A stretch of 64,000 nucleotides of DNA from Hyaloperonospora brassicae (lineage: Eukaryota > Oomycota > Peronosporomycetes > Peronosporales > Peronosporaceae): assembly GCA_947650285.1 (NCBI GenBank), contig CANTFL010001256.1, forward strand, positions 434,001 to 498,000, read 5' to 3'. Positions 1-64,000 of this stretch are shown here, piece after piece (position 1 is the first letter of the stretch; the number at the start of each line of letters is the position of its first letter). Made by a program: the position numbers and the translations under genes. A model generated the notes under the pieces. It saw nothing but the letters and a program-made list of their open reading frames with translations, searched no databases and was not told where the DNA came from.

Positions 1-141
1 ATATTCTTTATACAATATCACAAAGGATGATGATATTGTTGGGATGACCGAAGGGTCTACTCATTGGTTGATATCGTGATGATTTCAACCCACCAATAGC
101 TGCTAGACGCGCGCAATGGGTGGTGAGTAGACGTCATCATA

Positions 142-164: not shown

Positions 165-416
165 AGACTTGGTGGAAGGCAAATCTTATAACATAGCAGA
201 GGTTATTCCATAGCAGAGATATGCTGAGGAAAAATTATTAATTTAATTAATTAAAGAATCAAAAACGCAACAAACCTCCAGGCTTCCAAAACCTGTCTGT
301 CACGTGTCACGTGCCCTTTGACGATTTTGTGATTTTGGTTGCCCCACCAGTCTCTGGTGATTTTGCTATCTCTGGTTAAGAAGTTCCACCAACTGTACCT
401 TGCTCACTCACAACAG

Positions 417-13911: not shown

Positions 13912-16900
13912 TTACGTTAAGCACGCAAAGGGGTCGTCGCTCGACACCGGTGGCGGCTTCTCTTCGAATCCACAAATATCGTTGCCAGCAAAAGGGTCGG
14001 TCACGTCGGGGACCAAGGCTTCATCCGTGGCAACCGGTGCGGGCTTCGGTCCACTGCTGTCGCCGCCGCCTGGAACAGGACCAGTCTCGACCGTTGCAGC
14101 AGATGAAGTTGGCGAGCCAACAGCGCCCAGACTCGTTCGATTGACAGACTGCGAGACCTGATCGCTGAATGACCCTGAGGACCGTGGCAACTTGCTTGGA
14201 GATGACGATGGCGGGACGCCCGCGCCCTCTGACAACGTAAGCCCTTCATTGACAGCAGCTGAAGCGTCGCTGATGTTTGTGTTGATGCTTGTTAGAAAGT
14301 CCTCCATCGAGCGCGAAGATGCTCGTCTTTGTTTTCCTGCCGTTGCAGGCACGCTCTGCGAGCGCAACCCCGTCAGCACCGCATCGATGTCACCATCAGC
14401 CTCTTCGAGAACGTCCATGACCCGATCGCTTGTCGTTTGGATCACCACTGCACAATAGACAAAACGAGGTGAGCACGCGCGTCAACATCACATACACATA
14501 CATACATCACGAAGCAGACATGATCTTACTGGAAAAGTTGCCGTAATCGGCGTTCATCTCGTTCCAGAGGTAGTCAAAAAGCACAAACACTTCGGAAAAG
14601 AGCAGATGGAAGGCCTCGTTGTCGTGGAACAGTGGCCAGTTGCTTTGCTGTTCGCGGACGAGCTCACCATTGAACTTCCAGAAAAGACGCGCCACCATAC
14701 ACGTCACATTGATACCTGCAGGACCCCACGGGTAGGTGTGATCGTGCGACCCAGGTACCTGGCTCGTCACCATGCGCACAGCGTGGGCAGTATAATGTGA
14801 TGCAAAGTACACCAAACAATTCAAACTCAGCATGCCACCGGCACGGAAATCTGTCGTCGGGTCCGGACGCTGAAAGCCCAATCGGCTCCACGATTCTCCA
14901 ACTCGTTCAAATTGCAGTTCGGTGGCTGTGTCAGCAGCAACAGCATCACCAGCTGCATGGTCGTCGTCGCTCATATCCAACAGATTGTGTTCCACAGCAG
15001 AATGACTTTGCTCAGGAGCAGAAGCCTTGCACTCGCTTTCAAATGGTGACTGCGAGTAAATTGCCGTCCAGAGGTCACGAAGCAGTTCCTCGTACTTTCC
15101 ATCACCACTCACGCAGTTTTGCTTGAGCAGCACAAACTGCTCCTGCATGTGTGTTACGTACGGCTCTTTCGGCATCCCGGACTTTCCATGCCGTGACCAA
15201 AGAGCGGTGCCTTCACTGCCGCCATTGCCGCGCAAAAAGGCAGGCAGAAACTCCTCCCGTCTTTTGCTCCGCAGCAAATCGCGCTTAGTAGCCTGTGCAA
15301 GGGCAGCACGCTCGCGTTCCCGTGCTTGCTTGTCGAGCCCTACGAGACTCTTGCAGCCATCCGCAACACCGAAATGTAGGGCATAGGCGACCACAGCTCC
15401 ATCCGCATAGCCGCACACAATGCAGCGCTCATCTTGTCCCACGCTCACACTTGTCAGGTCCGCTCCTGAGCGCTTGCAATCGATTCGTCGGACCACAGAT
15501 CGAGGCATACCAGCGTCACGCACTTCGATTGCTGCTTCCGCACCAGCACACGCCGTGATTAGGTATTCGCCTGAACGAGTGAATAGCACACCGCGATCTA
15601 GCAGCAAGTGGGGTATCAGAGGCCTCTCATCTTCAGCGGTTTCTCCATCGTCAACACTTGTGACGAGCTTGTCGTGAGAAATCACGTGACCGTTGATGGA
15701 CACCATGTAAAGCTCCGACTGGTTGTCAGAGCCGTCGCGCGGCTGCAGCTGGTCGTTCGTAGCAACATACCCGCTGCTGGACAAACCGCCAGCCACCATG
15801 CTGCTATTACCATTTCCTTCGCCGACCGTAAGCCTAGCCTTATCGTCAGAGAAGATCGAGCTTGCGCGAGAGTAGCGTCCACTCCACTGGGTCTTGTGAG
15901 TCGTGATCGAGTGAACCAGCGTATCGCCCTGTGCCGAAATGACCATGTGAGCAACAACAGACGTCTCCATCGGTCCCGGTGTGAGCGCCAAAGCGTGAAG
16001 GGGTGTGGACCCGCGCAGCGAATGCAGCAAAAGCACGTTGTCCTTCGAGGCGCTGACCACTACATCCAGATCGACATTGAGCGCCACGGCCACGACTGGG
16101 CTCGTATGACCCACCAGTGACACCCAAGGCAAGCCACCAACGGGTAGCTCCTTCTTGACAAAAAGGCGTCGAGAGCGAGACGCCGAGAGTTTTGACAGAG
16201 CCCACACCGAAACAGTGCAATCTTCGCTACCAAAAGCCAGTGCTAGGTCACCCGTAAAATCGTCTTCGCTTCGAGCCATGCACAGAATGGGCTTTTTGTG
16301 GAAAGCGATCCGTTGCAAAAGCTCGCCGTCAGCTGCCCAGTGAATGCGCCAGCTGCCATCCCAGTAACCACAGCTTATCATTTGCTCATAGAACACCACT
16401 CCTTCGTTTACAAGGCAACCCGCAGGAAGCTTCCACCATTGGTCCACATCCACCATTGAGAATGGACAAGAGCGGGCGGTATCGGGGACCGCGTTCAAGT
16501 AACGTTTTGCCAACACAACGCCATCGCTATCCGTTGTGTACACAACGACCCCATGGTCATTGCTGCCAGTGCTGTGGGCTCCCATGCCAGTGCCACTACC
16601 GAGTCCGGGGCCGGATCCAGTGAGCGCAGTGAGTGCCGCTGCATTATTCAGAGCATTCGAAAAGCGGACGCTCTTTACAGCCGCGGTGTGCTTTGACGGA
16701 AGATCGTAGCGGCGGACCTGCCGACGCGATGAGAGCACAGCCATGCTGTGCGAAGCTGGGTATCGTGCCTCCAATGACTTATCCTGGGTCATTCTTACCG
16801 GGTGTGGCTTACGGAAAAGCTGTATTGGCACAGTTCCGCGCTGAACGAGTTTTGCTCGCACACCGTCGCTCGAGCTGCAAAGATCCAAGCGCTCCGGATA

Positions 16901-19900
16901 GCAGGCGATGTGGTATGAGTTCAAGCTGTCGATGGCAGGTGAGCCAGTCTGTTTGTACCCAAAAATAAGATCAATCCAGTGGTGGAGGTTGCTAGACACA
17001 AAGTCGCTCTCAAGGGCTAAACGGTGAAGCCGCACAAATTCGTATGGCGATGCAGCCCATGGAGGTAGTGCCACTTCACGTGCCAGGCACGCCGTCGCAC
17101 TCACATTCTGTCCCGGACTGAAGTGACGTGCAAGCGTTTTGTTCCGGGCACTTGAAAATAACTCAGGTAAGTAGAAAAACTCCGGCGTCAGCTCAAACAT
17201 GTGACGGTCGTCACTCGTGCACATCTGAAACGCATCACGCATTGAATCAAATGTAGGCTCGCCAGCAGACTTGTGGTAGAACCGCTGCTCCTCACTACCC
17301 AAAACGGCTCCCGTAAAAGGCGCAAGCCGGATCAAGAAGTATAACACAGACTGCAAGTGCGAGTACGCGTTTGCGTAGTGATACGCTGGAATAGGCATCT
17401 TCGGATCCCAGCTCTCATAAGTTGCTCGCGCACGCTGAATAGCCTCAGGCGTTTGCGCACCAATCGGTCGACGCAAGTCCCGATACACGTCTTCGTCGTC
17501 CAAACGAAGCTCAGCAGACTCATAGTCGTTGATCACCCACGGAAAGACAGGGTACTGCGAAGCATCATTGTACGAACGACCCGCCGATACGTTCAGTGCC
17601 ATCAAATATTCGAAGTTGCTGATCTCGCGTCGAACCCACATGTCCGTCCACTTGCTCTTGGAAAACATCCTCTCAGCTGTCAACAACCTCTTGCCCCACT
17701 TTGCAAGGCACGGAGGTTTGCGCTCTCGTAAAACGGCATATACGAGATCAGCTTCGCCAAAGCTCTCTAGACCGAAGAAGCATGAACTGCCGTCCACGAA
17801 GTAGATTTCAAGACCATTCTGACCCTCCATAAGGAAACGCCGTCGGTGAATCACACGAATGACGCGAACGCCCCACACACGACGCTTCAATTGCGAAATG
17901 TAGGTCTCGTGAAGTACTTGCGCGCTGCGCTGCCGAGCAGCAACACCCCCATCCTCATTTGACTTGAACGCGTCAGCAATGCCGCGCAGTGTTACCACAC
18001 GCTCGCCCTCAAAGACAATCGTCGCTGCACCTATCCGTAGGGCACCGTGCACTAAAACGCCCGACGGCAGGACGAGATACGCCTTGGTACGGTACGGCGC
18101 ACCCAACGTTTTCCAGTGATCGTGTTTACTCGGAAACTTCTTGATCACTCGCGATGAAGACGTGGGGGCCGACAAACTTGGTTCTTTCGGGCTGGGAGGT
18201 TTCGTGTTTTCTTTGCTTGGTGAAGCCGTTGCTTCCCCTTCAGTCGTATCTGGGGATGCTAAATCCTGCGAATCTTGCGTGCCACCGCCGTCATCTGATA
18301 TACTCGAGATGCTTCTGGTCAAACCTGAATTCTCCAGACCCGTCGGTCCTGACGAAGTGGCCGAGCCACGCGTACCTGCCAAACGTTTAATGCCGGTGGA
18401 AAAGCGCGTCGATATCGTACCAATGCGGCCCTTCGCTGACTTGACAGTGGTTGCTACATCTACAGAGACAGCACGACGTTCCCTGGACATGTTCGCCATA
18501 ACTCTTGTGGCACCGTCGTAACCGTCTGGTGGTGGCGGTGCTAGCGGTGCAGTTGACACATGGTCTGAATTGAGACCCACAATCTCCAAGTGCAGCGATG
18601 AGCGTGCAATATCTCCGACGCTGCCGCTACTGTTCATGCGGTCGCGCAGCATCGAGAGCGCTCTGTCCCTATCCCTTTTACTAGTATCTTGCTGTGGTGT
18701 ACTATTGTCGTCATCCAGGTACCCCACGTCACTGAGGCGCCGCGCTAATCCGACATACCCCGGGTCTTCATTTTCCGCAGGTTCAGACCCATCTCCACCA
18801 CTGCTATCGGTGCGAGTCTCGTCATCCTCCTCTTCCTCTTCGAATGCCTGGTCCATCAAATCGCCTGATGCAACAAGAGTCGCACCGTCTACGACGATGG
18901 AATCCACCACCGGCATCACCAGTTCATCAGGCATATTGCTCACCATTTCTTGCTTTAGACTCAACGTAGACAAATTCGCATTGCAATGATAAGAAACAGT
19001 GTCGTCTGTATCTGGAAGCAAACGACAACGGATCCAATTGCTGGACGTGTAGATATCAACACGCCAAAACTCATTGTCACCCCAAAGCCCGATGATGGTA
19101 CTGTCACCAACAGAGTTCACAGCGGCCTCTTCTTTCACACCCCAGACGTGACGAACGCCCCACTTCGCCAATACGCGAAGCTTCATCCAGTCGTCAATAT
19201 CTTTGGCCTTTACGCGTTCCAACCAAACGTGATCCTCGCTGTCGTTAGAAGGCCCGCCTAGAGAAGGTGCTGAGCGAGTGAATTTGCTGATTCGCTCCAG
19301 CTCAGTCTTAGCCCGGTTCTTTTCATTCGCTTCTTCGTCGAACATACCGACCCGACGCAAAGCACGAATGTCACGTGCGTGTGCCATCTGTTCGTGGTAA
19401 AAGCAGTCACGACGACGGACTTCTTGGTTGTTTGCGACAAAGTCGCTCCGGGCAAGCAAGTCGGTAAGCTGATCCGACGATCGCAGAGGCACGGACACCA
19501 AAGACGCGAGAATGCTTGCTAACTTGACTGCCGACTCGGACCAGCTCTTCTGTCGAACGCGATCGATCAGCAGAGAGAGCTCAGGAATCAGCCACAAGAG
19601 CAGCGTCGTTTCGTCTCCAGGGACAGACTTTACGCATAGAGATGCTGTGACTAATCCAGCCGTTGTTGTCATGCCGTTCGAGCCTGAGCGAGAAGGCGCG
19701 AAGCTCGATTCAAATTGCGCGGTCTCGTGGCCTAAGCCCATTGCATTGATGAAATATTCCAGTTTGTTGATGCGTGCGAAAAACACCGAGTTGGCTGGAA
19801 GCCGCAGCTTTACAGATGAGAGCTCGTCATTGTCACCGCCATCGTTGGAAGCCGATGTTTCATAGTCGTCGGATATGAGAACAAGGTACAAGCACCGCAG

Positions 19901-22900
19901 CAAGAGCTGCAAGATCTGGCGCATTGGGCCACCGGGGTGAGGACGAGCGGAAATGGTACTCGCGCTTGACGACGGTACCGGTGAAGAATTGGATACCGGT
20001 GTACTAGGACCACCTGTAGGTAGCAGGTTGAATCCGAACCCGAGCATATTCGCGCTGCCATTGGAACGCGCAGACGAGCCCAATGATGGAGGACTTTGCA
20101 AGCCGCTCTCTGCCGAGCGCGACACTGTGCTGCCACGGCGGCTTTGGGCGTTGCTCGATCGCCGGGCGAAGCTGGCATCGGACTCGGTGTGGAAATGCGA
20201 TGCAAAATGCTGCCAGATGCCCAAAATCGAGTCCACAAGCTCAGCCTCGTGCCAAATGGCTCGCTCGCATTTCCAGAACACCAGAGAATGAATCGTATCT
20301 TCACTGCATGTACTCGCACACGCACTAGGATCAACGTCGCCCAGAGTATCGGGGTCGTAGTGCAGCACTACAGCAGCTGCTAGAGATGCCAAACTCTCAG
20401 CATTCCGCCACAGAATCGATTCACGCGATGGAGTGCCGTGGTTTATGCGCAGATTCATCTCGGCCGAAAGCATTTCGTTCATTTTGTCCAAAGTGGTCTT
20501 AAGCAATGACACAACGACCATCTCCAACTCCTCTGTCGACGCAATAAAGCGCGATAGAGCAGTAAACGGGTCCTGTAGTAAGAACCACGCCATTTCATTC
20601 GTTTTTACTTCCAAGCAGATCATGGATGAGATAACGTCGTATGACATATGAGTGATAAAGTCAACACATCCACTGGGCTGGAACACAGCCATCAGTTCCA
20701 CAAGTGCCAGTTTCATGCGACTTGACATGTGGTTGAAACAGCTGGCGCTTATGCCCTGCTTCTTGCGATCCCCATCCCCGTGCAGAGCCAATAGACCACG
20801 CACGAAGTCGACATCGTCCTGGGTAATAATCGAGTACAACGCGTTTACGCGGACCTCATCCGGTTCATGTACGTTCAGCACCATGTCTCGGAGTCGACTC
20901 ATTGTGACACCGGAGCACCCGCGTAGCTCTATACCAAACAAGGATGATGGTGGCGATGGTGAAGACTCCTGTTGGAGCTGCGGATCTCCACGGAGACTGA
21001 GGATGGCCTCGATGATGGGGACTTGTTCCGTCGTTGACGACTCAGTTGCTGTGCCGCCCATGTTCGATATACTTCCGAAGATCAGAACATTGCGGTTGAC
21101 CGCGCTGGCGAAAGTGGACGACGCGAATATGATCTTCAGATGGCGGATAGCAACCATGCGGATTGTGACAGTGCTGGCGCGTAACAGACCTAGAAACGCA
21201 GGCATCATATTGTTGTGCCAAATTGTTGCGGTAGCTAGCACATTTTCGTCGATGAGTGCATCGTATGCTGCCGTTGTTTCATCTAGCGCTTTCATATTCT
21301 TTTCTGTCACTTGGATACCCAAAATCATGAGCAAGATTTCTGAGTAAACGCCCATCGACACAGGTCTTTCGTCAGGTTTGAGTGAATGCATGATCAGATA
21401 CGCATCTCCGACGGAAAGCTGTATCCTGTCCGTCTTATTAGACGCCTCGCGATCCTGAGTACACTCGCACTTTAGAAACAGATACGTTCGTAGCAAACGC
21501 AGAGTCATGACACGGATCACATCGTTCGAAAATTCCAACAGAGGTAGCCAAATACGGAGACCTCCCAAGCGGCCAAAGAGGTCCAGCATTCCTGCTGGAG
21601 CTGTGGACTGTACCGATAGCTCAATCAGCAGGTGCAGCAAGTCGGGCAAATCCGTTTCGGGTACGTTCTCGATGATTGGTCCGCCCCCGTCGAGGTCACT
21701 CTCCGGCGCGGCCTTGGAGCCTGACGACGACGAGACGGTTGCTGATGATGATGTCCCATTCGACAAGCTGCTCTCATGAACGATCTGGGTTCCATCAATG
21801 TTTATTCCCGGGATCATGGGATTGCTAGGCTTCCCAATCATGCAGAATATGAGGCACCGCGTGCTGTCGTATGATAGCTGAGACTTTGCTTCCTTTCCTT
21901 TCCCAGGAAACGGCATCACCGAACCGACATTCTTTATCGGTGAGGACTCACATAACACGATTTGGATCATTGCCAGCACACGCTTCCGTAATAGAACAAT
22001 CTCCTTCGACGAAAACTGACGAGAGCGTCGAAGGGTCGTTGCAGTAGGAACCTTCCAGTAAATCCACGATAGACAACGCACGAAGTGACGCGTAGAAGCT
22101 GGAGACAAGTTCTTGTTGTCCTTACGCGTCATAATTTCCAGTTTGTCAAACAAGATGTCTTGAAGATCCACCGGTGCATTCACCCATATCCGAAAGTTGA
22201 ACAGCAGAAATTTATATATCTCGTCCGCCAGAATACGATCCGAGATCACCGCGCTACGCAATCGCTCAATCGCAACCAGAAGATCGGACGTCAAGTACTG
22301 CGGTGGCAACGAGCGCATTAGCAGTGCCATAAGACGCACGCCTTGGCTGCGCCGGAAGATAAACTTGTTAACCAGTGAATGGCGCATGATTTCTGCGATC
22401 AGCAGTACAACCTTTGGAATGCTGTGTACCCCCATTGGACGTGCAAGCAAATCGCTCATTTGTCTGAGAAAACCTGAATCTTCGTCGAATTGGGTCGTCA
22501 AAGCCACACTCAGTCCTGACAGACTGTTGATTGCAACAAGACATGACTCTGATGTGCCGTCTTCGTTTTGGTTGGTTGCTGTAGCATTTGCTGTCGACAC
22601 AGGCGCAGTTGTAGATGTCACAAGTAGCGGAAGACAGACAAGCGGACCTCCGAGTTGTGCCACCGCTTGCTTAAACGTTCCTGCGTGCCGTAGTCGAACT
22701 CCTGCACTGGCCGCAGCCGCGTGGAAGTCATTGCCGCTCGAATCATAGCACATCCCTTTTAGTCGATCGCAGTGCCGGGCATCATAGGCGAGCAGCAATC
22801 CATCCGTCGAGCTTCCTGTACCATTGGTTCCTCCGGATGTCCCCGTGGGTCCGTTAACACCACCACTCGATGACGTGGATGATGACGAGATGTAAGAATT

Positions 22901-24055
22901 GAACTGGAAAACTAGCGCATCGTACTCGTCGACGCTGCTGATATTGTTGATGATGCTTGCCGGTAAAGCTTGTCCAAAGAGTGCCGTGGGTCCGAGCAGG
23001 ATACGTAGAGAGTTGGATCCATTGCTTTCGCGCATAGCTAAATATGCCTTGACGACAGGGGCCATGAGTGCTGTGTTCGGGTATGCCAAGCGCACACTCT
23101 GACGCAGTTCAGAGTTTAGATAAACGTCAAGTCGCGATCCACGAAACTGGCGATGCGTGTGCGTGATACACAAAAAGTGCCACCTCCCCGGCGTGACGAG
23201 ATCCGGCACCTCAACGTGTCCGTCGTTCTTTCGCTTGTCAAAACTCGTGACCATCAACGACGAGCGCATGAAGGAGCACATGATGCCAACTCCTGTTTTG
23301 CCACAAAAAGTAAAGAGCGGCGCTGCTTCCTCGGGCAGCAGCTCAAACTTAATCCATGCGCAAAAGGTGTATCCATTGTTCGGAAACGCCGGGAGCACAG
23401 GCATCAACAACCCCGAGAACTCGCCGTTCAAGTCGAAAAAAGACGCGGGACCAAACGAGTCGCGCGCAATCATCTCGAGCGTCGACAAGTAGTAGCTGAC
23501 GGACTGATCATCGGGCGCCTCGTGTACCATGCGCTGACTGCGAAACACCGCGAGCATGGCCTGAATGTCGCCAATGCTCACCGAGTGGTAAGCCAAGTAG
23601 AGAAACACGCGCAGCAGTTTCTTGAGCACCGTGTGGGGCAGACTCGGGTCGGCAAAGAGACCGCGCTCACTCAGGAAGCGCAGGATCTCGCGCTGCAGAC
23701 CGGCAGTCGAACAGGCCTCGACATTGCCACAGCTGCTGCGCACGAGACTGATGAGCGCCTCCAGGGCTCGGAGCTGCTCGCTCTCTTCCAGCACGCCAAT
23801 GATGGTACTGAACAGTGTCTTGAGCCGTGACGGCCGCCGGATCTGCAGTCGTGTCGCGTCCGCATCGCTGTAGTCCTTCCCGCCCACTAATCGTGACAAC
23901 AATTGTATTGCAATAGCGACACACGGCACGACAATAGGACGTTAACTCACGCGAAAGATCATACATAGTCTATCCGCATCAGCACACATGAGAGCGTACG
24001 TACGCAGGTCCCGTAGGAAAGTGGAAACGGTCGATTGCGGCTCCCCCGCGCTCAT
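13912..24055 (-). CDS. giant BEACH/WD40 protein, neurobeachin/LRBA-like, 3,328 aa
   Basis: Proposed exons on the minus strand are 24055-23951, 23875-14530 and 14447-13912 (9,987 nt, a multiple of three). The 9.3-kb central exon is uninterrupted. Domains: a concanavalin/LamG-like stretch near residue 190 (FPNNGYTFCAWIKFE), long armadillo-like helical regions, a PH-BEACH domain at about 1950-2090 (KAYLVLPSGVLVHGALRIG, IYFVDGSSCFFGL), BEACH at about 2110-2385 (REISNFEYLMALNVSAGRSY, YPVFPWVINDY, ELTPEFFYLPELF), and WD40 repeats at about 2430-2890 (ILCMARSEDDF, SEDCTVSVWALSK, VVSASKDNVLLLH). Family members act in membrane trafficking, lysosome size and autophagy. The C-terminal exon is Ser/Pro-rich. 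The 3' splice (14530/14447) is well supported; the first acceptor (AAG before 23875) is the weakest point, because a nearer AG would break frame. Confidence 0.88.
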
Positions 24056-26185
24056 GTCGGTCACAAAAGAGGGGGTGAGTGGGGACGCCTCGTGCGACGC
24101 GATTGTGTGTGCGTGTGTCCCGCTCGCTCGCTCGCTCTCTCTCTCGCTCTCGCTCGTTTGCGCTCTTATTAAAGACTGATCCGTCCACGACACTTGTGTG
24201 AAGGCCTTGTTCCTCTCGAAATTGCATGGTATACAAACACCAAGTCATCGAGCCGCACGCGTCGCCTCCTTTTTGTGCGAATTCGATTTTGGGGGCAAGA
24301 AATGGGTACACCGGGACACGAGAGCTGCTCGACGGACGCAAAAGCGTTGACCACCAGATCTGTAAAGTGCCTTCAGGTCCTTTAACTCGGTGTGCACACG
24401 CAGGAACAGCACTAAACGGATAGTAGAGCTCACAGCAGAAACAGCAACACCAGAGCGTGCAGTACCTTTGGCGCAGGCAGCAATGGATGTGCGTCTACAC
24501 TGGAAATGTCGGTGAAGGTGTCGCGCGGATCGCTCGCGTAACATTTGCACCGAGAGCTACATCTTCATCGATAGATGACATGGTACTAGCAATGGAGTTG
24601 TAGCTGCAGGTCGTCATAGTACGCCTCTGATCGACCGCCTGACCGTGTAACGTATGCGCTCGATAGCTCAAGGTGGACTACCGATGAATGGCCCCAGCTA
24701 CGCGATGTTTCCGACGGATCTGTGCGCGGGGGTTCGTGCTGACACAAGTGCTTGACGACTGGCAACGACAATGATTGACCGCCACTAGTCTACGCTTACG
24801 TCTATTGAACAGCAAAGTACTGCATTTGGTTTCGTGGTAGGATCGCAGCGGGTTTGTCGTCATGTCTTTCGGACCAGCAGGGCGCAAAGCTGCTCGAGAT
24901 ACTTTCGATCGTGTACCAGCTATCGCATCGCTACCTTCTCATCGTCCCTGACGCCTGATTTAGACCGGCAGGCACATTCGATAGCTGCAACTCACCCGCT
25001 ATCTGCATGTTACGCTTTACGTCGTGCCGAGACTGGTGGTCATGCTCGCAGATACCATACCACGCAGGGACTTCCTGCTGAATCCGTTGCAGTGTGCACA
25101 AGCGTTTCGCTGGCGGGATAACATAGAGCGCCTCATCGGGAGCTCAAACCTGCGTCTGTCCCCACATGGCGTGCAGCTTGACCGCACTGCAGCGTGACTC
25201 CCGCGAGGATGTGATGGTGCGAGAGCGAGAGTCATCGCATGGAGACAACCACGCAAGTATCGTACTCCAACGCACCAAAACCACCCCCAATCAACTTGTT
25301 GCAGCACCCGCCATCGCCAATCGCTTCACGAATCAAACCAAACACGTCCGCCCACAGCCATTCAACAGAGTGTCGTGGCTTTGCAATCGCTGTCTCGTCT
25401 TTTACCTCTGCGAGCTAATGCAGACGCGTCTGATTGCAGTCGGCGATCACTACGAGCTCATCAGCAGCCACTTCTTCCTCTTTTGTGTTGCGTTCCTTCA
25501 CCGGTATCAACCGCACGAGGAAGCTGCTCCGTAGAAAAATGACGCGTGGTCGCACAGTCTGTGTGTACCATACGCATCGAGGTATTTGCACAGTACCCGC
25601 GTATCGCATTGACAATATGACGACACGCTTTCCGAGAAGAGAAAGAGAACGTTACCATTTTGTTCTTGGGATACCTTTGAGGCCGCAATCCATTCAGTCA
25701 GTGCTTGCGTTGATGGTGACTTTCGGCACAAAAAAGAGCTTTGGAAAAAGCGCCGGGTGCCTCAATTTCAGCAAACACGTCCTACCTGCACACATTGCTG
25801 CCTGTCAGTGGCATCAGTGTCCAGCACTGCACAAGTCTCGTTGTCGCAATCTACGGTGCTCCCTCCGATAGTCAAGGGGTCGATGGATGGAGAATTTCTG
25901 CGCGCTGGCAGAGGCCAGACCTTATCGGGTTGTTGCGCAGTGGCATTCATGTGTGGAGTCAGTTCATCAAACAGCGAACCGCAGGCAACAAAAGGAACGC
26001 CAGTATCTCATCGAGCCATAAACCAAACTGTACAAGACTGGAAATTGATTCCAAAGGTACTTGGCTACAGACTGGTTGACAAGACGCTTTACCTGAACGA
26101 TCCTTCCTCGACTCGGCACGTGCCGAAAGGTGCGAGACAACTTCAGACACGTTTGCGCCTATTTCCATCAGAATTGATGTCATGC

Positions 26186-40118: not shown

Positions 40119-40821
40119 ATGCGCGTAGCTGCTGCCCGCGCCGTCGCTCGCTCGCGTCTGTCCCCGCCGCTGCGCACGCCTCCACTGCTGACGACCGTGA
40201 CACGTCCGCAGCTTCTGTGGCGTCTCTCTCCGTGCGCCACGCATCTGCCGCTCCTGTCGCTATGCGCCGCCAGTGGCTCTGTCCGCACCAAAACCAGTGA
40301 GCGCGCGTTGCGGCGCAAGAACTTGCGCAAGATGAAGAGCCAGAAGGGCGGCGAAGTGCCGATGCTGAAGGATACGCTGCGCAAGCTGTACCTGCGCACG
40401 CACCCGGACCTGTTTGGACGGTACCCGGAGCAGCAGCGCGCGAACGAGGAGTCGTACAAGGAGCTGCTGGGCATTTTGGATGCGATTGAGAAGCACAATG
40501 AGTTCCCTCCTGCCAAGACGTTGGTGCTGCGGTTCTTTCTGAAGACGCCAGTCGAGGGCGAGTTCAAGGAAGTGGACCTGCAGCTGCGCACGACTGGCGG
40601 TGCTTGCAACACACTCGTGGAGGAGGCTTTGGGTCGGTTTTTCGGCGAGTGTGGTCTCCCACAGGCATTTCAGTGGGGAGAAGGCAGCTGGGGCAAGGCT
40701 GTGGGCAAGACTGTGGTCGAGAACTCGAATCTGGGCTTCGACAAGGAGGAAGAAGCGCGTGAGAAGGCGAGCAAGGAGGCGGAGGAGGCGAAGCGTGAGG
40801 ATGCAGGTGAGCAGCCGGAAC
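40093..40821 (+). repeat. inverted repeat arm 1 (5' half of TCAIM-like gene A)
   Basis: These 729 bp match the reverse complement of 43124-43852 at the same length, with about six substitutions seen by eye, five of them clustered at about 40,200-40,275. Identity stops abruptly at both borders. Confidence 0.9.
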
Positions 40822-41192
40822 CGGCGTTGGATCTGGATGATCGTAGCGTTACGATGGAGGATGCATCCATTGAAAAGGTGCTGAGCGAACTCAACGAGGT
40901 GTTTGAGATAATTGCTGCAGTGCCGCTGTTGGATGAGAAAGAGTACGGTGAGCTACGAGATCATTTTGAAAAGGGCGAGGGTCTTGATGAGATCGATGAA
41001 CGTGGCTACACGATTAAGGCAGGCACGCACAAGATTTGGAACGGCGAGCGCAATCTCGATACAATAGTTGCCGGTGTCGACACGGATTCAGCTTTGATTC
41101 TACAGCGGATCCTGTTGCACACGCTTAACATTGACGTGAAAGTGCGCGAGATGCTTGCGAATGGTCGCAAAGACGCTGGCGATGACGAGTAG
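40119..41192 (+). CDS. TCAIM/DUF4460-like mitochondrial protein, copy A, 357 aa
   Basis: A single-exon frame. The N-terminus is Arg/Ala/Ser-rich without acidic residues (MRVAAARAVARSRLSPPLRT), a likely mitochondrial targeting peptide. A J-like DUF4460 region follows: LRKLYLRTHPDLFGRYPEQQ, then ANEESYKELLGILDAIEK. This resembles T-cell activation inhibitor, mitochondrial (TCAIM) of animals. A coiled, charged segment (KEEEAREKASKEAEEAKRED) joins it to a C-terminal part with WNGERNLDTIV and DSALILQRILLHTLN. Function in oomycetes is unknown. The frame is open from 40029, but the shared start with copy B favours the ATG at 40119. It is tail to tail with copy B. The N-terminal half is nearly identical to copy B, the C-terminal third only about half identical. 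Confidence 0.85.
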   Translation: MRVAAARAVARSRLSPPLRTPPLLTTVTRPQLLWRLSPCATHLPLLSLCAASGSVRTKTSERALRRKNLRKMKSQKGGEVPMLKDTLRKLYLRTHPDLFGRYPEQQRANEESYKELLGILDAIEKHNEFPPAKTLVLRFFLKTPVEGEFKEVDLQLRTTGGACNTLVEEALGRFFGECGLPQAFQWGEGSWGKAVGKTVVENSNLGFDKEEEAREKASKEAEEAKREDAGEQPEPALDLDDRSVTMEDASIEKVLSELNEVFEIIAAVPLLDEKEYGELRDHFEKGEGLDEIDERGYTIKAGTHKIWNGERNLDTIVAGVDTDSALILQRILLHTLNIDVKVREMLANGRKDAGDDE

Positions 41193-42737: not shown

Positions 42738-43826
42738 CTAACTTCGCGTGCCAGTATCGTTTTCTTCGTCCGCAACGCCTTCGCTGGCAATCATCTCGTT
42801 CATCTGCTTTTCAAATTCGAGCGTGTGCATGTATATCCGTTGTAAAATTATTGCTGAGTCGGCATCCATCCCCTTGATCAACGTGTTCAAATTCCGTTCA
42901 CCCTGCCACATCCGAATCACACCACTCTTTGTCGTAAAGCCCTCCGAGTCGAGGTCGTCCAATCCTGTACCTTGCTCAAAGTGCACTTTGATGGCACGTT
43001 GCTGCTCATCTTCCTCATCCAGGTACGGCATTGCCGCAATAAGCTGAAGTGTGTCGTCTACTTCATTCAACATCTTCTCAATCGAGTGATCTGGAGCGCT
43101 ACCACCGGAACGATTGTACGTTCGTTCCGGCTGCTCACCTGCATCCTCACGCTTCGCCTCCTCCGCCTCCTTGCTCGCCTTCTCACGCGCTTCTTCCTCC
43201 TTGTCGAAGCCCAGATTCGAGTTCTCGACCACAGTCTTGCCCACAGCCTTGCCCCAGCTGCCTTCTCCCCACTGAAATGCCTGTGGGAGACCACACTCGC
43301 CGAAAAACCGACCCAAAGCCTCCTCCACGAGTGTGTTGCAAGCACCGCCAGTCGTGCGCAGCTGCAGGTCCACCTCCTTGAACTCGCCCTCGACTGGCGT
43401 CTTCAGAAAGAACCGCAGCACCAACGTCTTGGCAGGAGGGAACTCATTGTGCTTCTCAATCGCATCCAAAATGCCCAGCAGCTCCTTGTACGACTCCTCG
43501 TTCGCGCGCTGCTGCTCCGGGTACCGTCCAAACAGGTCCGGGTGCGTGCGCAGGTACAGCTTGCGCAGCGTATCCTTCAGCATCGGCACTTCGCCGCCCT
43601 TCTGGCTCTTCATCTTGCGCAAGTTCTTGCGCCGCAACGCGCGCTCACTGGTTTTGGTGCGGACAGAGCCACTGGTGGCGCATAGCGACAGGAGCGGCAG
43701 CTGCGTGGCGCACGGAGAGAGACACCACAGACGCTGCGGACATGTCACGGTCGTCAGCAGTGGAGGCGTGCGCAGCGGCGGGGACAGACGCGAGCGAGCG
43801 ACGGCGCGGGCAGCAGCTACGCGCAT
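42738..43826 (-). CDS. TCAIM/DUF4460-like mitochondrial protein, copy B, 362 aa
   Basis: The architecture is the same as copy A: a basic N-terminal presequence, the HPDLFGRYPEQQ J-like core, a charged linker, and a C-terminal domain with WQGERNLNTLI and DSAIILQRIYMHTLEFEKQ. Residues up to GEQPE differ from copy A at only five positions, all within about the first 53 residues. After GEQPE the proteins diverge sharply but remain homologous (IEKMLNEVDDTLQLIAAMPY against IEKVLSELNEVFEIIAAVPL). The frame is open upstream to 44066; the ATG at 43826 is chosen because it matches copy A and starts the presequence. Both copies are intact, so both may be expressed. Confidence 0.85.
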   Translation of the reverse strand: MRVAAARAVARSRLSPPLRTPPLLTTVTCPQRLWCLSPCATQLPLLSLCATSGSVRTKTSERALRRKNLRKMKSQKGGEVPMLKDTLRKLYLRTHPDLFGRYPEQQRANEESYKELLGILDAIEKHNEFPPAKTLVLRFFLKTPVEGEFKEVDLQLRTTGGACNTLVEEALGRFFGECGLPQAFQWGEGSWGKAVGKTVVENSNLGFDKEEEAREKASKEAEEAKREDAGEQPERTYNRSGGSAPDHSIEKMLNEVDDTLQLIAAMPYLDEEDEQQRAIKVHFEQGTGLDDLDSEGFTTKSGVIRMWQGERNLNTLIKGMDADSAIILQRIYMHTLEFEKQMNEMIASEGVADEENDTGTRS

Positions 43827-43852
43827 GGTCGCTATGGATGTCCTGGCTGGAA
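43124..43852 (-). repeat. inverted repeat arm 2 (5' half of TCAIM-like gene B)
   Basis: Reverse complement of 40093-40821. The match begins 26 bp before the start codon and ends inside the linker codons for GEQPE, in the middle of the coding sequence. Confidence 0.9.
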
Positions 43853-44503
43853 ATGGATGGCGAAGGTGAATCGTACCTACACAGATGTTTGGTGCACGTG
43901 CGTACCTAACGATCCGACGTCCTGTGGACAGTGCATCGGTCGTACAAGTACGACGTTTGCGTGCAGCGGGCGGCTTTACATTTGCCCTATACACAGGACG
44001 ATCAGTCTCTGATGTACATATAAGCAAGCGAACAACCGTGCGCTTGTCGTCGCCGGATTGCGTCATGATCCGAGCATCAACGTGCGGTGGTGCTCACGAG
44101 CAAATCAACGACCAATTGTACGTTCGTTGCCAGCACACTGCGCCGGTACGTTGTACATACAACAAGCGTTGACAGTGTCTCGAATGACGGGGCGGCATTA
44201 CCGCATCAGACGACGTGTCCCACAGCTGTGGCAAAAAACCCCACCAGAGCCAGCGCGTGGGTCGAACAGTCACTTTGGTACAGTGGTATGCCACACAGCG
44301 AGAACAAAAGAAAACGCGCAGCTGCGAACTTATCGATCCGACGACAAAGAGTGTGCGTGTGTGTGTTTTATACACTTGGTCGAATGAAACAACCAGCTGG
44401 GCCATGTTTAAATCGGCTGCCATCGCTCTCGTCGCTCTGTTGAAACCATCTCGCGCTCAAGACGACGACGGACCCCATCGCTTCACTCGCTGCGTCTGCG
44501 CTC
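43853..44503. promoter_or_regulatory. divergent intergenic region, TCAIM-like B / VTT protein
   Basis: About 650 bp between divergent start codons. It should contain both promoters. No clear motif is recognised. Confidence 0.35.
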
Positions 44504-50550: not shown

Positions 50551-50632
50551 GGGTGAACCAAGAATCGACGAGGAAGACTCGACGAGGGAAAGCTCAACGA
50601 GGAATGACTGGACGATCCAAGACTCGACGAGA
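50551..50632 (+). repeat. 15-bp tandem repeat, retroelement-derived
   Basis: About five units of GACTCGACGAGRGAA type run in succession. In frame they code for D-S-T-R-E-like pentapeptides. The same repeat type occurs at 60,236-60,305, so both places probably descend from related retroelement coding ends. Confidence 0.7.
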
Positions 50633-50920: not shown

Positions 50921-51335
50921 ACGAGTCTCGTCGCACGGTGAGCCGATGACCCAGTAGACGGCACCGATTTAAGTCTCGTCGCACGACGGGCCGGTGACCA
51001 GTAGACGGCACCGATTTAAGTCTCATCGCATGGCGAGCCGGTGACCCAGTATACGGCACCGATTTAAGCCTCATCTCATTGCGAGTCAGTGACCTAATAG
51101 ACGGCACCGATATAAGCCTCATCGCATGGCGGGCCGGTGACCCAGTATACGGCACCGATTTAAGCCTCATCTCATTGCGAGTCAGTGACCTAATAGACGG
51201 CACCGATTTAAGCCTCATCGCATTGCGAGTCAGTGACCTAATAGACGGTACCGCTTTAGACACGCGAACGGCGAGCCAGTGACCTTATAGACGGCACTGT
51301 CCAAAGTCTCTTCGAGTGACGAGCCGGTGGGTCTT
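50921..51335 (+). repeat. 48-bp tandem repeat array, about eight units
   Basis: Each unit has the form GYCTCATCKCATKGCGAG...GTGACC...TAGACGGCACCGATTTAA. Two variants (GGCGRGCCGGTGACCCAGTATAC and TGCGAGTCAGTGACCTAATAGAC) partly alternate, giving a 96-bp higher-order period in the middle. The unit length is a multiple of three and the core is open on both strands over about 200-360 bp. It lies just upstream of the broken gypsy element and may be part of its leader. Confidence 0.85.
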
Positions 51336-59868: not shown

Positions 59869-61912
59869 GAGCCAGGCAAAGCGAGCGGGAGATACGAAGT
59901 AGAAGCAATCGTGGATGACGACTTACCACTCTCTTCGAGCATCAGCAGGACTCAGCGACGGTTTCAGGTGAAGTTAAAAAGCTAAGACATCCCTACATGC
60001 GATACTTAATCTAATCTATTGTGGGTAGGTTTGTTATGCGATCAACTACGGCAGAAGAAGAGAGAGAATCAGTTGAAGATGGTGCGGGTGAAGGATGAGT
60101 GCTAGTCCAAGCACCACTGTCACCAACAACCTAACCTCTGTGATGACAAGCAGGCAGAGATGAGGGTGAAAACACTGCGTCCATATTGCATAAAGTACAT
60201 AAAAGAAAGGGACTTTATTACTTAAATGGATTACCTAAAGACTCGAAGAAGGAAGACTCGACGGCGGAAGACTTGACAAGCCAAGAATCGACGAAGGACG
60301 ACTCTTCGAGTCGACTTACCTGCATGGCAGAATATCCGAGGACAAAAGGTCAGTGGCGGCCACCACAGACTCGTCGAGTCGCGAAGTATAATGCTGAGCG
60401 ACCAAAGAGGCGAAAGTCAGCATGTCACGACGATTCTCGGAAATCGGTGCAGCGGGTATCACAGAAGGAGGAGCGGGTTCGTCTAATCCTGACCTCAACA
60501 ATACGAGACGCCACATCGCTCTCAGCAACACCTGCCGGCACAAATACAGGGAAATCAGGATGGTGTGCCCTGAAACAAATGTTGTTGGGGTGCTCCTCCG
60601 GCCTGGTCAACTGTCAGACCTTCCATATCTCAAATTTTTCCCAATGAACCGATCTCGGCAAACCAGTCAGGACCTAAAGGCACCCATTTGTGACTAACGT
60701 GTGGACAGTGGGGCATAGATGGTTCAAATGAAAGTTCGGGACCGAGAGCAGAAGCCAGTCCGTCAGGCATAACCGCTCAGAGACAACCTCGTCAGGACAT
60801 GGTTAAAGACTTCACGTCCAGCCGGAGGGGTATCCACGACGCTTGCAAGAAGAGGGATATTTCTCCGAGATCGCGAATAGGGTGCCTATATCAGCAGTCG
60901 ACCTAGATATGTCGAAGTCTGGGTGCCTCCCCCTCAAGATGCTGAACTCGAAAACCAATGAATTCTCTCCTACAAGGCGAAGTACACCTTCAATTGAGAA
61001 TCAGCAGTATTCTTGCGGTCGACCTAATGACCGAACCCGCGGTATCGGCCCCATACAGGATAGACGGCATCCAGCATACTTCTCGTTCGAAGATACCGTT
61101 TGAAAGAGTAGAGTCCAGCCCGAGCGACTTGAATACGAGCCGCAGCTACAAACATAGGCGATTCCAGGAACATGCCGAAGGTCACCTGGCAGTAGTGAGA
61201 CGGGATGAACACGTCCATTATCGCTCGTAGAGCAGCCACCGAGACGAAGGAAACCGCGACGACAGACCGGCCATGGAGGTTCTCCATGCGGAGAGGCGAC
61301 CGATCGGCAGTAATCTATGCCCAACACCGGGACGAACCTGGGTGATAAACGTGATTTCCACACTCTGGCTTATCGCTGGTTTATGACGAGATCACGTGCC
61401 ACTGCCTGTGCCGCGCGGGTGAGAAGCACCACTACGGGCATACAAAGCGAGAAAGGCAGTTCTAACACCACAGACGCAGGTACGGATGGTGCGGAAGCCG
61501 TCTCAGGCGCCTCACGGATGACAATAGAAGACACGCTTGATTGATTAGTCGACACCACGGGCGCACGAACGGAAGATGCGACAGAGGTCTCAGGCGATTG
61601 ACTGGTCCCAGGAGAAGAAGTGCTCGATCGACGAGTCGACACCGTCCGAGGAAAAGCTTGGGACACAGTAAAAGGGGCCCAGGTGAAGGAGTCTCCCGGG
61701 AACGTTTGTCGGATGACGCAGACAAACCTCTCTACTTGCGCTTCTTCGTCGGCTACACTGGATTTGCGTTAGCGTCGACGGAACTCGGAGGCGATGACGT
61801 CGCGGGGACGAAAGACGACACTGAACACGACGGAAGAACTTAAACTATTACGGTATGGGAGACAGGAGCAGACGTCAACGAGACCGACGTGATCGTCGAT
61901 CCAGACACTTGA
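59869..61912. other. decayed retroelement-derived sequence
   Basis: 60,186-60,647 is an open plus-strand stretch starting with 15-bp repeats coding KKEDSTAEDLTSQESTKDDS, then a basic region. Further pieces (for example AVDLMTEPAVSAPYRIDGIQ near 61,020) show no recognisable catalytic motif. This looks like remains of at least one other retroelement. No intact gene. Confidence 0.4.
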
Positions 61913-62303
61913 TGTAACGGGGCAGCCCGTTACATGGAATTGTCACTTTAAGAAAAGTGACAATAACGAATATGAAGTTGAATATTCTTTAAACAATATC
62001 ACGGAAGCGATGATATTGAAGGGTCGACCAAAGAGTCTGTTCATTGGTTGATATCTTGATGATATCAACCCACCAATCGCCGCAAGACGCGCGCAATGAG
62101 TGGTGACGAGACGTCACCATACACTCAGTTACATTAGCATAATTAAGTTAAGTCAAACAAAGAGAAAGTAGTTTATAGACTTAATTATATTAATATAACA
62201 GTTCTGCTTTTACCTTACCTACGCTTCCTCGCTTGCCTTGTGTACGTCTGTCGGGGCACCGATACCCTTGCGTTAAGTTCACGCAAGGGTGTGCCCCGTT
62301 ACA
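61913..62303 (+). repeat. 5' LTR of a younger Ty3/gypsy element, 391 bp
   Basis: Begins TGTAACGGGGCAGCCCGTTA and ends GTGCCCCGTTACA, with TG...CA borders. The two termini are themselves complementary. The 3' LTR is beyond the window, so the right border is inferred from similarity to the LTR end at 2685 and the gag start 45 bp later. A TGG at 62306, three bases past the end, could begin the primer-binding site. It contains at least seven perfect hairpins (arms 8-10 nt): 61913-61934, 61940-61963, 61994-62018, 62046-62070, 62101-62119, 62264-62290 and the enclosing 62252-62298. Confidence 0.85.
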
Positions 62304-62347
62304 CCTGGTAGCACTTTGTAGTCCTTCCAAGGACCACAACATCCAAC

Positions 62348-63211
62348 ATGAGCATGTTGGATGATGAAGAGACCTTTCACGCCACGCGTGAAGGGTTTAC
62401 CCATTTGAGTGACATCGAATGGGGTGCGGTAGAACGAATGAGTTCTACCGTAGGCGAGTTCGCCATTAGCTCCATGTTGGAGTCTCTAGACAGACACCAA
62501 CAACATGCCGCTATAGCCAAGTTCATCCAAGATGAACTTGTCGCCGAAAGGGATAAAGTAGCCTTGCTTTACCAGCAAGGCTCTCAACAGGCCGAGCAGT
62601 TGAGAGAACTCGGTGCTCAACAGACAGAGCTGTTGAGACAGCAGCAATTCCATGCTTCTGTTGGCGGGACGGCACATGCGCGTCGTCCCGAGGTCATGAA
62701 GGTTGACATCTCCAAGAACAGTGGAGTGCCGGAGGACTCCCTGTTACTATGGTTTGTCGAACTCGACAGAGCCTTAAGGGCTCGTCGCGTCGAAGATGAG
62801 CAAATGAAACTCACATTTGCTCAGACCCACTTGGCAGGGCGTGCCAAAACTTGGTCCCTGGGACTCGAGAGTAGCGACCCACATGTGTTAAGGTCGCTAG
62901 ATGACTTCAAGTCCCGGCTCAGACAAACGTTTGAGCCGCCACGAGCTGAGTTCAGGGCTCGTTCTGAGCTCCTGAAACTCAAGCAGGGTAAGCGTGATGT
63001 TCACGCTTACGCACAACATATACGACTCCTCGCGAGTAGTATAACTGCTAACCCAGTTCATGAACACACGTTGATTACGGTGTTCATGCAAGGGCTCGCA
63101 GAAGGGCCCGTCAGGATCCACCTGTTCCGCCTTGAGCTGAATACTCTTGAAGAAGTGATATCAGCCGCGGAACAGGAAGACTTTAGCATGAGACAGGCTC
63201 ATGCTAGCTAA
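62348..63211 (+). CDS. Ty3/gypsy Gag (capsid part), 287 aa
   Basis: The frame starts MSMLDDEETFHATREGFTHL. A coiled-coil-like stretch (about residues 55-105, Gln/Glu/Leu-rich) precedes a retrotransposon gag core with LLLWFVELDRALRARRVEDE, AGRAKTWSLGLESSDPHVLR, LDDFKSRLRQTFEPPRAEFR and LLKLKQGKRDVHAYAQHIRL, the signature of retrotrans_gag capsids. It ends with TAA at 63209-63211, but the same frame continues open for another 96 codons and there carries the zinc knuckle. Capsid and nucleocapsid are thus split by one stop codon, either a nonsense mutation or a readthrough site. The gene's nucleotide sequence is full of inverted repeats. Confidence 0.85.
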   Translation: MSMLDDEETFHATREGFTHLSDIEWGAVERMSSTVGEFAISSMLESLDRHQQHAAIAKFIQDELVAERDKVALLYQQGSQQAEQLRELGAQQTELLRQQQFHASVGGTAHARRPEVMKVDISKNSGVPEDSLLLWFVELDRALRARRVEDEQMKLTFAQTHLAGRAKTWSLGLESSDPHVLRSLDDFKSRLRQTFEPPRAEFRARSELLKLKQGKRDVHAYAQHIRLLASSITANPVHEHTLITVFMQGLAEGPVRIHLFRLELNTLEEVISAAEQEDFSMRQAHAS

Positions 63212-63502
63212 AACTCTTACCGTCCACCGAGACGACAAGAGATCGGAGATCCAGAACCAATGGACCTCTGCTATGTTGAGAGCGAGAGACCTCTCTCTAC
63301 AAACAACACGCGATTGAAGAGGTGCAATCGCTGTCAAAAGTCAGGGCACTACGCATACGAGTGTAGTGCTCCACGCCCAGTACCAATCAGTACTGAGCGA
63401 AATGGACGACCATTTTCCAGAAAGGGCAATGGGCGTGGGTCCAGCGCTGTTGCGAAGCCGCAACAGCGAGACGGACCATCAAAAAATGGTCGGGGTCAGT
63501 AG
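63212..63502 (+). CDS. Gag C-terminal nucleocapsid with CCHC zinc knuckle
   Basis: In frame with the gag core after the TAA. The zinc knuckle reads CNRCQKSGHYAYEC (C-X2-C-X4-H-X4-C) at about 63,322-63,363, followed by a basic Arg/Gly/Lys-rich tail (RNGRPFSRKGNGRGSS) that would bind RNA. It ends at TAG 63500-63502. Without readthrough of 63209 there is no obvious separate start except the ATG at 63260. Confidence 0.75.
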   Translation, partial: NSYRPPRRQEIGDPEPMDLCYVESERPLSTNNTRLKRCNRCQKSGHYAYECSAPRPVPISTERNGRPFSRKGNGRGSSAVAKPQQRDGPSKNGRGQ

Positions 63503-63524
63503 GGGCGGAGCGCCCTACTGATCC
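63481..63524 (+). promoter_or_regulatory. -1 programmed ribosomal frameshift signal between gag and pol
   Basis: The heptamer A-AAA-AAT at 63481-63487 fits X-XXY-YYZ in the gag frame (TCA AAA AAT). A -1 slip leads into the open pol frame. A hairpin follows: CAGTAGGG (63497-63504) pairs with CCCTACTG (63513-63520), extendable with one G-U pair to 63493-63524. The spacer is 5-9 nt, as in known signals. The gag stop codon lies inside the stem. Confidence 0.7.
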
Positions 63525-64000
63525 AGCAACCTTAAGAGAATTTGCAAATCTCTTGACGAAAGTTGATCCAGATACACAATCATTGTGTGCCTCTGCACCT
63601 GGTGATGACGTTTCGCTCATCACCTTGAAGTTGGAAGCGACAAATGATTTGTCACTTCGTGCCCTAGTAGACTGTGGGGCGTCGAACAACTTTGTTCGAC
63701 GCCAGTCACTAGAGGGTCGTAGGCTCAAGTTCGTTGAGCGCGACATTCCCCTCACAAGGATGACGGTGCGCCTTGCAACAGGCGCATCGATTACCGTTAA
63801 GAAACGTGTAGTCGGAATCCACTACACGTTGGAGGGCGAACAGTACGATGATGACTTCATCGTACTAGATCTGGATGACAAATTTGATGTCATCCTGGGA
63901 TTACCTTGGCTCAGAAAGTACGAGCCAAGGGTGATCTGGCAGCATCGATCCGTGAAGATGCCTGCCACTTGTTCATCAGATGGCCATCTGATGAACATCT
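63481..64000 (+). CDS. Ty3/gypsy Pol, N-terminal part with protease, cut by window end
   Basis: The frame is -1 relative to gag and stays open from the slippery site to the window end. The retropepsin-like domain starts near residue 45 with LRALVDCGASNNFVRRQSL, where D-C-G-A replaces the usual D-T/S-G-A. This variant also occurs in other gypsy proteases, so it need not be inactive. LEGEQYDDDFIVLDLDDKFD and VILGLPWLRKYEPRVIW are the typical second half (DVILGxPWL). Reverse transcriptase would follow outside the window. Confidence 0.85.

Follow-up and report, generated by a model that had tools for sequence, protein, structure and literature searches.

Genome-scale ordered RNA structure (GORS) was described for viruses as an excess of folding energy along a long coding RNA; the available passages of that work set a threshold of 3% and give 9.0% for a murine norovirus segment and 10.9% for a hepatitis C virus segment (PMC3950689). 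The genomic RNA of Ty3, a Ty3/gypsy element, is reported in the available passages to be well folded in a core that makes up about 19% of it (PMC11381356). Perfect stems can also be written into DNA, since template switching creates and repairs them (Monttinen and Loytynoja, 2022; available passages of PMC8794818), and homogenization of the arms of inverted repeats has been described in yeast (Abraham and Hazkani-Covo, 2021; available passages of PMC8604942). The subject of this study is a young, high-copy Ty3/gypsy long terminal repeat (LTR) retrotransposon at the end of a 64,000-nt stretch of the oomycete Hyaloperonospora brassicae (contig CANTFL010001256.1, positions 434,001 to 498,000; the whole stretch is referred to as the window). 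Short perfect hairpins span the element from its 5' LTR through its 3' LTR, which lies beyond the window. We propose that they are a selected property of the retrotransposon transcript, the genomic RNA, with selection preserving densely packed local RNA hairpins; on balance we hold this to be somewhat more likely than not.

Like the GORS viruses, the element shows a folding excess over a long coding RNA that is present in some relatives and absent in others; unlike them, it is an LTR retrotransposon with a far larger excess and with discrete perfect hairpins whose arm size is family-specific (available passages of PMC3950689). Folded with ViennaRNA in 26 non-overlapping 300-nt windows with 12 dinucleotide shuffles each, it had a minimum free energy (MFE) 41.8% more negative than the shuffles. 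By energy this is about four times stronger than the viral figures, both comparisons resting on dinucleotide shuffles and 300-nt windows, with UNAFold, 50 shuffles and half-overlapping windows in the GORS passages (PMC3950689). The corresponding values were -0.6% for an older gypsy copy in the window (52.8-59.9 kb), 0.6% for host sequence at 20001-26000 and 0.1% for locus L041. The excess is thus above 3%, is spread over the element including its coding parts, and is strong in the family to which the window element belongs (the subject family) and less so at three other Ty3/gypsy loci, L062 (15.2%), L063 (15.8%) and L064 (5.6%). In viruses, GORS is also associated with persistence or with escape from innate sensing. 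The likeness to Ty3 lies in a Ty3/gypsy element with a folded genomic RNA, but saturation with perfect local hairpins is not described for Ty3 in the passages available (PMC11381356). Template-switch hairpins share the perfect stems and compensatory changes, although recent multi-base changes here lack a clear reverse-complement signature (available passages of PMC8794818). The yeast case likewise involves inverted repeats in coding DNA, but there 39 genes of a species are concerned and here one element is saturated lengthwise (available passages of PMC8604942). In the open-licence literature, searched by titles and abstract openings of the entries listed, no report of a hairpin-saturated retrotransposon was found.

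Hairpin excess along the element and among families

An earlier note on this DNA had singled out the interval 62304-63997, counting 14 perfect inverted repeats with arms of at least 9 and loops of at most 12 nt against a chance estimate of about 0.1, and some 20 more with arms of 6-8. Our search of the interval found 15 of the former, where 300 dinucleotide shuffles gave a mean of 0.08 (maximum 1), and 26 of the latter, where 100 shuffles gave a mean of 4.32 (maximum 10), so that the first count and the estimate were borne out and the second count was exceeded. A separate listing of 14 repeats follows other rules, and four of its members are short palindromes with overlapping arms. Codon-preserving shuffles (200, with protein and codon usage kept) yielded 0.13 ± 0.39 (maximum 2) against 8 hairpins observed in gag, and 0.23 (maximum 2) against 5 in the protease. 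The hairpin counts thus lay far above both kinds of shuffle that the note had called for.

The excess is limited to inverted repeats. Over the whole element (7,985 bases; arms of at least 9, loop of at most 12) there are 53 inverted, 0 mirror, 0 direct and 1 complement repeats, and the same search of window positions 1-60000 gives 7, 13, 17 and 5 respectively; the mirror, direct and complement controls are without excess. That the hairpins reflect chance or base composition is contradicted by these controls together with the dinucleotide and codon shuffles, and an assembly artefact is contradicted by their presence in 30 copies at 30 separate places, while other families of the same assembly do not have them; we give such explanations practically no credence.

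Along the 8 kb, hairpins with arms of at least 8 are spaced about 95 nt apart, or 67 nt once arms of 7 are included, and most have arms of 7-11 bp and loops of 2-13 nt. They occur in the LTR, coding and 3' non-coding parts alike; at arms of at least 8, the LTR holds 6 (0.1 by shuffles) and the 3' non-coding part 10 (0.2 by shuffles). The interval first noted is therefore saturated as claimed, but its limits are not those of the feature, since hairpins cover the whole element from the 5' LTR. Because positions 60001-61911, directly upstream of the element, hold no perfect inverted repeat with arms of at least 9 and a loop of at most 15, the hairpin habit begins sharply at the LTR. The reverse transcriptase (RT) region is less dense, with 5 hairpins with arms of at least 9 in 1,446 bases of L031 against 15 in the 1,694 bases of the noted interval; L031 is the locus of the window element (contig C786, 494001-504000), its position 1 being window position 60001. 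Arms of 12 or more are rare in the subject family (2 of 88 hairpins; arms of at least 8, loop of at most 20), approximately the number that chance extension of 10-11-bp arms would be expected to yield. Pairing drops to background beyond the ends of the perfect arms, which argues for discrete hairpins and not for remnants of long duplexes. A known structured RNA motif was also considered and was ruled out by an Rfam scan of L031 1900-9900, which gave 0 matches above the gathering score.

Biased codon registers, and an amino-acid identity that differs little in stem codons, show that the hairpins are encoded chiefly by the choice of codons. The three registers hold 40, 31 and 15 hairpins (1.35, 1.09 and 1.22 in shuffles; the L031 protease and the L067 pol part overlap, so that some subject-family hairpins are counted from two copies). 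The preferred registers place the wobble position in two of three pairs and the rarest pairs wobble with wobble. Compared with non-stem codons, the identity of stem codons to related families lay between 9 points below and 5 points above, and it was lower in six of nine comparisons.

All 30 family copies that were fetched, the window's own included, are saturated, with 41-65 hairpins with arms of at least 8 per 4.1-4.7-kb locus, compared with 0-4 in 2.6-3.8 kb at 30 other RT loci (L032-L061), one of which, L057 (3 hairpins), contains an LTR-like piece of the subject family. The older gypsy copy has no inverted repeat with arms of at least 8. When window positions 1-60000 were divided into ten 6-kb blocks, the first two showed a slight excess at this arm length (3 each, against 0.8 and 1.1) and the other eight none; the absence of hairpins that the earlier note reported for this copy, and for the host genes it had scanned, thus holds, the host having no comparable excess.

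Five Ty3/gypsy families were compared, the subject family and those of L062, L063, L064 and L065; L066 and L067 belong to the subject family as diverged copies. Enrichment is weaker at L062 and L064 (23 and 13 hairpins with arms of at least 8 in 4 kb), and L063 and L065 have 1 such hairpin each. L063 has instead a short class, with 83 arms of exactly 5 against 38 expected and 43 arms of 6 against 11 (z of 13.7 and 5.9 respectively over dinucleotide shuffles, loops 3-10), and few longer arms (4 against 2.1 at arm 7, and a single hairpin at arm 11). At L065, from a distant family, no significant excess was found at any arm length. The hairpin habit, with an arm size specific to each family, is therefore present in four related families and not in one distant family. 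We note that the 5-6-bp hairpins of L063 (C10:31000-35000) occur about once per 35 nt and have a pyrimidine-purine innermost pair in 73 of 89 cases, and that those of L062 (C42:989000-993000) are GC-rich, the outermost pair being G-C in 22 of 32.

Stem variation and the origin of the hairpins

The many copies act as a natural experiment in which variants inherited via replication can be separated from those gained after insertion. Among 29 copies (L011, too short upstream, was excluded) no two had clearly homologous upstream flanks, and they are therefore separate insertions; variants present in several copies would then mostly come from replicating lineages, and those in one or two copies mostly from after insertion. 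Among core stem sites, 23 of 1,058 carry a shared variant (one present in at least 3 of the 30 copies), as against 150 of 2,529 sites elsewhere (p=5e-7). When the stem footprint was shifted circularly, none of the 3,568 shifts gave a count as low as 23 (null 50.9 ± 7.5). Rarer variants (in 1-2 copies) are not depleted, at 179 of 1,058 and 438 of 2,529 sites (p=0.81). The depletion of shared variants is stable for arms of at least 7 or at least 8 and for sharing thresholds of 2, 3 and 5, and is weaker but kept when stems are defined more loosely, by at least 2 copies (38/1,141 against 135/2,446, p=0.004). For tests by codon position the reference copy was required to carry the commoner base, since variants private to the reference otherwise count as shared by the others. 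At third positions, shared variants number 0/182 in stems and 32/468 elsewhere with L003 as reference, 0/187 and 31/462 with L004, and 1/181 and 22/461 with L029, with no difference between stem and non-stem for rarer variants; at first and second positions together the shared counts with L003 are 2/366 and 23/962. In the 5' LTR and in loops, for example L003 oriented 1100+328..336 and 1100+70..77, copies differ by multi-base changes with varied outcomes, as if these places were hypervariable.

Between families the habit is mostly kept and the positions mostly turn over. For stems of the subject family the fraction paired in L062 and L064 is 0.41, close to what squaring the nucleotide identity (0.61) gives. 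L062 and L064 are 75% identical in the RT part, where 50 of 56 pairs of L064 stems are also paired in L062, and 51 of 88 pairs of L062 stems in L064; unchanged pairs dominate these counts, which are not independent. Slid controls were not exceeded by the double Watson-Crick changes seen between families where stems are homologous (for example, 12 for L062 stems in L064, against 17-22 when slid). Alignment of copies for conserved stems and covariation, as the earlier note had suggested, accordingly found conservation of stems within the family and largely none between families.

The kinds of shared variant bear on which molecule is folded. Stem-pair states, classified by eye as G-U, C-A and other, number 11, 6 and 3 among shared variants of the subject family, 4, 0 and 0 in the L062 clade and 4, 2 and 1 in the L064 clade, giving sums of 19, 8 and 4; the private singletons of the subject family number 42, 42 and 70 (G-U against all else, shared against singletons, p=6e-4). 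Pairs with two Watson-Crick forms number four in the subject family and two in the L064 clade. For each of the four, single-change intermediates are present in at least 5 copies, and three of the intermediates are G-U, the series seen being T-A/T-G/C-G, A-T/G-T/G-C, G-C/G-T/A-T and C-A with C-G and T-A. We hold RNA to be more likely than DNA as the folded molecule.

A number of results weigh against selected RNA hairpins. Folding is no weaker on the minus strand than on the plus strand (MFE ratio 1.004). The comparison of G-U with C-A alone among shared variants, 19:8, reaches only p=0.05-0.08; subject-family stems that contain one internal G-U are only slightly more enriched at K=7 than those with one C-A (4.15 against 3.00), such stems are less enriched in L062 (1.13 against 2.56), and pooled changes between copies and families are 373 for G-U and 372 for C-A. 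A-rich loops are significant in L031 and L062, with the opposite trend in L067, and L065, taken as clean, has a folding excess of 3.3% despite no hairpin excess. Comparison of the subject family with the others shows no covariation where stems are homologous. In the codon-position tests with L003 as reference, stems also hold fewer of the rarer variants at first and second positions (36/366 against 144/962, p=0.015), and with L029 there is no depletion of shared variants at these positions (p=0.81). The depletion is not significant in the L062 clade (6 sequences, RT part; 4/192 against 41/1,185, p=0.39) and is weak in the L064 clade (12/165 against 165/1,297, p=0.04), and fixed differences to the diverged copies L066 and L067 are too few to discriminate (1/571 against 5/1,147).

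The equal folding of both strands and the static counts that do not favour G-U would fit selection on hairpins of single-stranded complementary DNA (cDNA) or of DNA (cruciforms), which might for example steer strand transfer or protect the cDNA. The lean of shared stem variants to plus-strand G-U, borderline as it is against C-A, speaks against this, and arms of 5 bp such as those of L063 would make weak cruciforms; we regard selection at the DNA level as improbable.

Another possibility is that the hairpins were written by mutation. The nascent strand would fold back during reverse transcription and copy a few of its own bases, turning imperfect repeats into perfect hairpins; these would be fixed points of the process, filtered by protein function alone and needing no use, with an arm size set by the reverse transcriptase of each family. 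The sharp ends of the perfect hairpins with background pairing beyond them, the family-specific arm size, the lower density in the RT region and the lack of a clear lead of G-U over C-A in static counts are all consistent with such a process. Polarised multi-base changes create 6, 4, 4, 4 and 4 reverse-complement matches with five reference copies, against 3.9, 2.1, 3.2, 3.5 and 1.9 at random, an excess that is not significant, the references not being independent. Also in its favour are three double Watson-Crick changes in single copies, as compared with four double changes to a non-pair, and 1-3 double changes in each comparison with L066 and L067, where 0.14-0.36 are expected; of the three single-copy pairs only 2575/2590 also has a shared intermediate. 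However, a strict search found a reverse-complement source for none of 47 multi-base clusters, and the two arms diverge alike in eight of nine comparisons (the exception being L064 stems against L067, with 26 and 41 of 77), the absolute 5' minus 3' mismatch being near null in all nine, which for distant families is a weak test. Symmetric correction would moreover predict about as many double changes as there are missing single ones; some 40 shared stem variants are missing (1,058 x 5.9% minus 23), and there are only four shared double-change pairs, all with intermediates. When changes were polarised by frequency, 8-18 matches were destroyed against 13.8-30.2 at random (five references); destruction is thus below chance, and creation is at most slightly above it. 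The unpolarised count depends on the reference: L003, the hairpin-richest copy, gives 10 created and 19 destroyed of 209, and L026 gives 23 and 11. Template switching by the element's reverse transcriptase, as raised in the earlier note, therefore finds no clear support in recent changes; it may have been the source of the first hairpins, and as an account of the whole array we consider it unlikely.

A further suggestion of the earlier note, of an RNA folded by codon choice, stands in part. Codon shuffles abolish the hairpins, protein identity is barely affected, registers that use the wobble position in two of three pairs are preferred and shared stem variants are depleted.

Structure of the element and the rest of the window

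The noted interval is the 5' part of a Ty3/gypsy LTR element of about 8 kb that continues past the window end. In L031 coordinates its two LTRs, each of 391 bp, occupy 1913-2303 and 9499-9889; they differ by 13 mismatches (96.7% identical), and CTTGA flanks the element on both sides. In window coordinates, all on the plus strand, the target-site duplication CTTGA is at 61908..61912, its second copy lying 3' of the 3' LTR outside the window, and the 5' LTR, TGTAACGGGG...CCCCGTTACA, at 61913..62303, containing 6 hairpins with arms of at least 8. Directly 3' of it, at 62306..62313, stands TGGTAGCA, which by eye we take to be a putative motif of the primer-binding-site kind. The gag reading frame (Retrotrans_gag PF03732, Ty3_capsid PF19259) occupies 62348..63211 and in the window copy is followed by an in-frame stop before the CCHC zinc knuckle CNRCQKSGHYAYEC at 63323..63364, a motif of the gag frame recognised by eye in translation. 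Pol begins with a retroviral aspartyl protease (RVP_2 PF08284) at 63553..64000, with RT, RNase H and integrase beyond the window. The assignment to Ty3/gypsy follows from two LTRs, TG...CA ends, the target-site duplication and a domain order of gag and protease (window), then RT, RNase H and integrase (copy L067, 92.7% identical to L031 over 3.5 kb and of the same family). The window copy has stops in its frames; some places have uninterrupted RT frames of 1,339 codons, and at least one of these places is a family copy, judged by where it lies relative to a match. The search of the assembly (100.6 Mb, 898 contigs) gave 2,045 first-look candidates; the 40 family copies scored among them were all at least 96% identical over the query, so that the copy number is a lower bound. 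Gag relatives number 291; among the best 120 listed many are from Peronospora matthiolae, one cluster of these having 1,049 members at 71% identity. A single scan of viral contigs with the RT part of L062 found no relative.

The inverted-repeat search placed the following hairpins in the window, all on the plus strand and given here with arm and loop in brackets. From the 5' end they are 61912..61935 (10, 4), 61939..61964 (11, 4), 61994..62018 (8, 9), 62046..62070 (10, 5), 62101..62119 (8, 3) and 62264..62290 (10, 7), followed by 62340..62363 (11, 2), 62427..62450 (9, 6), 62518..62540 (10, 3), 62560..62582 (9, 5), 62581..62606 (8, 10), 62616..62637 (8, 6), 62797..62823 (10, 7), 62872..62899 (8, 12) and 62988..63010 (10, 3). 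Further along are 63059..63088 (9, 12), 63184..63206 (9, 5), 63445..63468 (10, 4), 63496..63521 (9, 8), 63601..63624 (8, 8), 63678..63703 (12, 2), 63803..63830 (10, 8), 63842..63866 (10, 5), 63873..63895 (8, 7) and 63904..63930 (9, 9), and a 14-bp perfect palindrome lies at 63970..63997.

Elsewhere in the window, open frames at 40119-41192 (+) and 42738-44066 (-), about 1.5 kb apart in opposite orientation, encode proteins that by eye are near-identical over most of their length and differ at their C-terminal ends, and the pair looks like an inverted gene duplication. A tandem array at 50927-51297 (48-bp unit, 7.8 copies) covers most of a minus-strand frame of 120 amino acids that encodes a repeated peptide. 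Related degenerate 15-bp repeats (AAGACTCGA...) at 50558-50631 and 60238-60304 flank the older gypsy copy on either side. The frame at 14507-23557 (-), of 3,016 codons, may encode a BEACH/WD40-like protein.

Possible use and meaning of whole-length folding

If selection does maintain the hairpins, mostly silent codon choices, together with the freedom of sequence in the LTRs and in the 3' non-coding part, would build local stem-loops in a folded molecule that is probably plus-strand RNA rather than single-stranded cDNA. In Phytophthora infestans, LTR retrotransposons yield most small RNAs, the 21-nt class being the more abundant (available passages of PMC3522703), and shielding is therefore a natural guess: the hairpins may put the RNA out of reach of nucleases or of silencing guided by small RNAs, their helices presumably being too short to serve as Dicer substrates. 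The earlier note had raised both such a shield and a possible source of small RNAs. The main alternative use would be packaging or compaction in the particle.

Perhaps, and we put this forward only tentatively as doubtful, there is a 'hairpin gauge', whereby each Ty3/gypsy lineage fills its RNA with its own standard size of hairpin (arms of 5-6 bp in one family, of 7-10 in another and of 7-11 in the subject family), the pairing being selected and most positions turning over. On this view every lineage would have a matching partner that measures length, which could be its own Gag, its reverse transcriptase or a host sensor of double strands. We know of no example of such size-standardised RNA organisation in mobile elements. 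If the reading of selected RNA hairpins holds, no natural coding element known to us would have an RNA folded more strongly along its whole length, and the carrier would be a mobile element and not a virus. With families of different hairpin size in one genome, the question of why some replicating RNAs fold along their full length would become directly testable.

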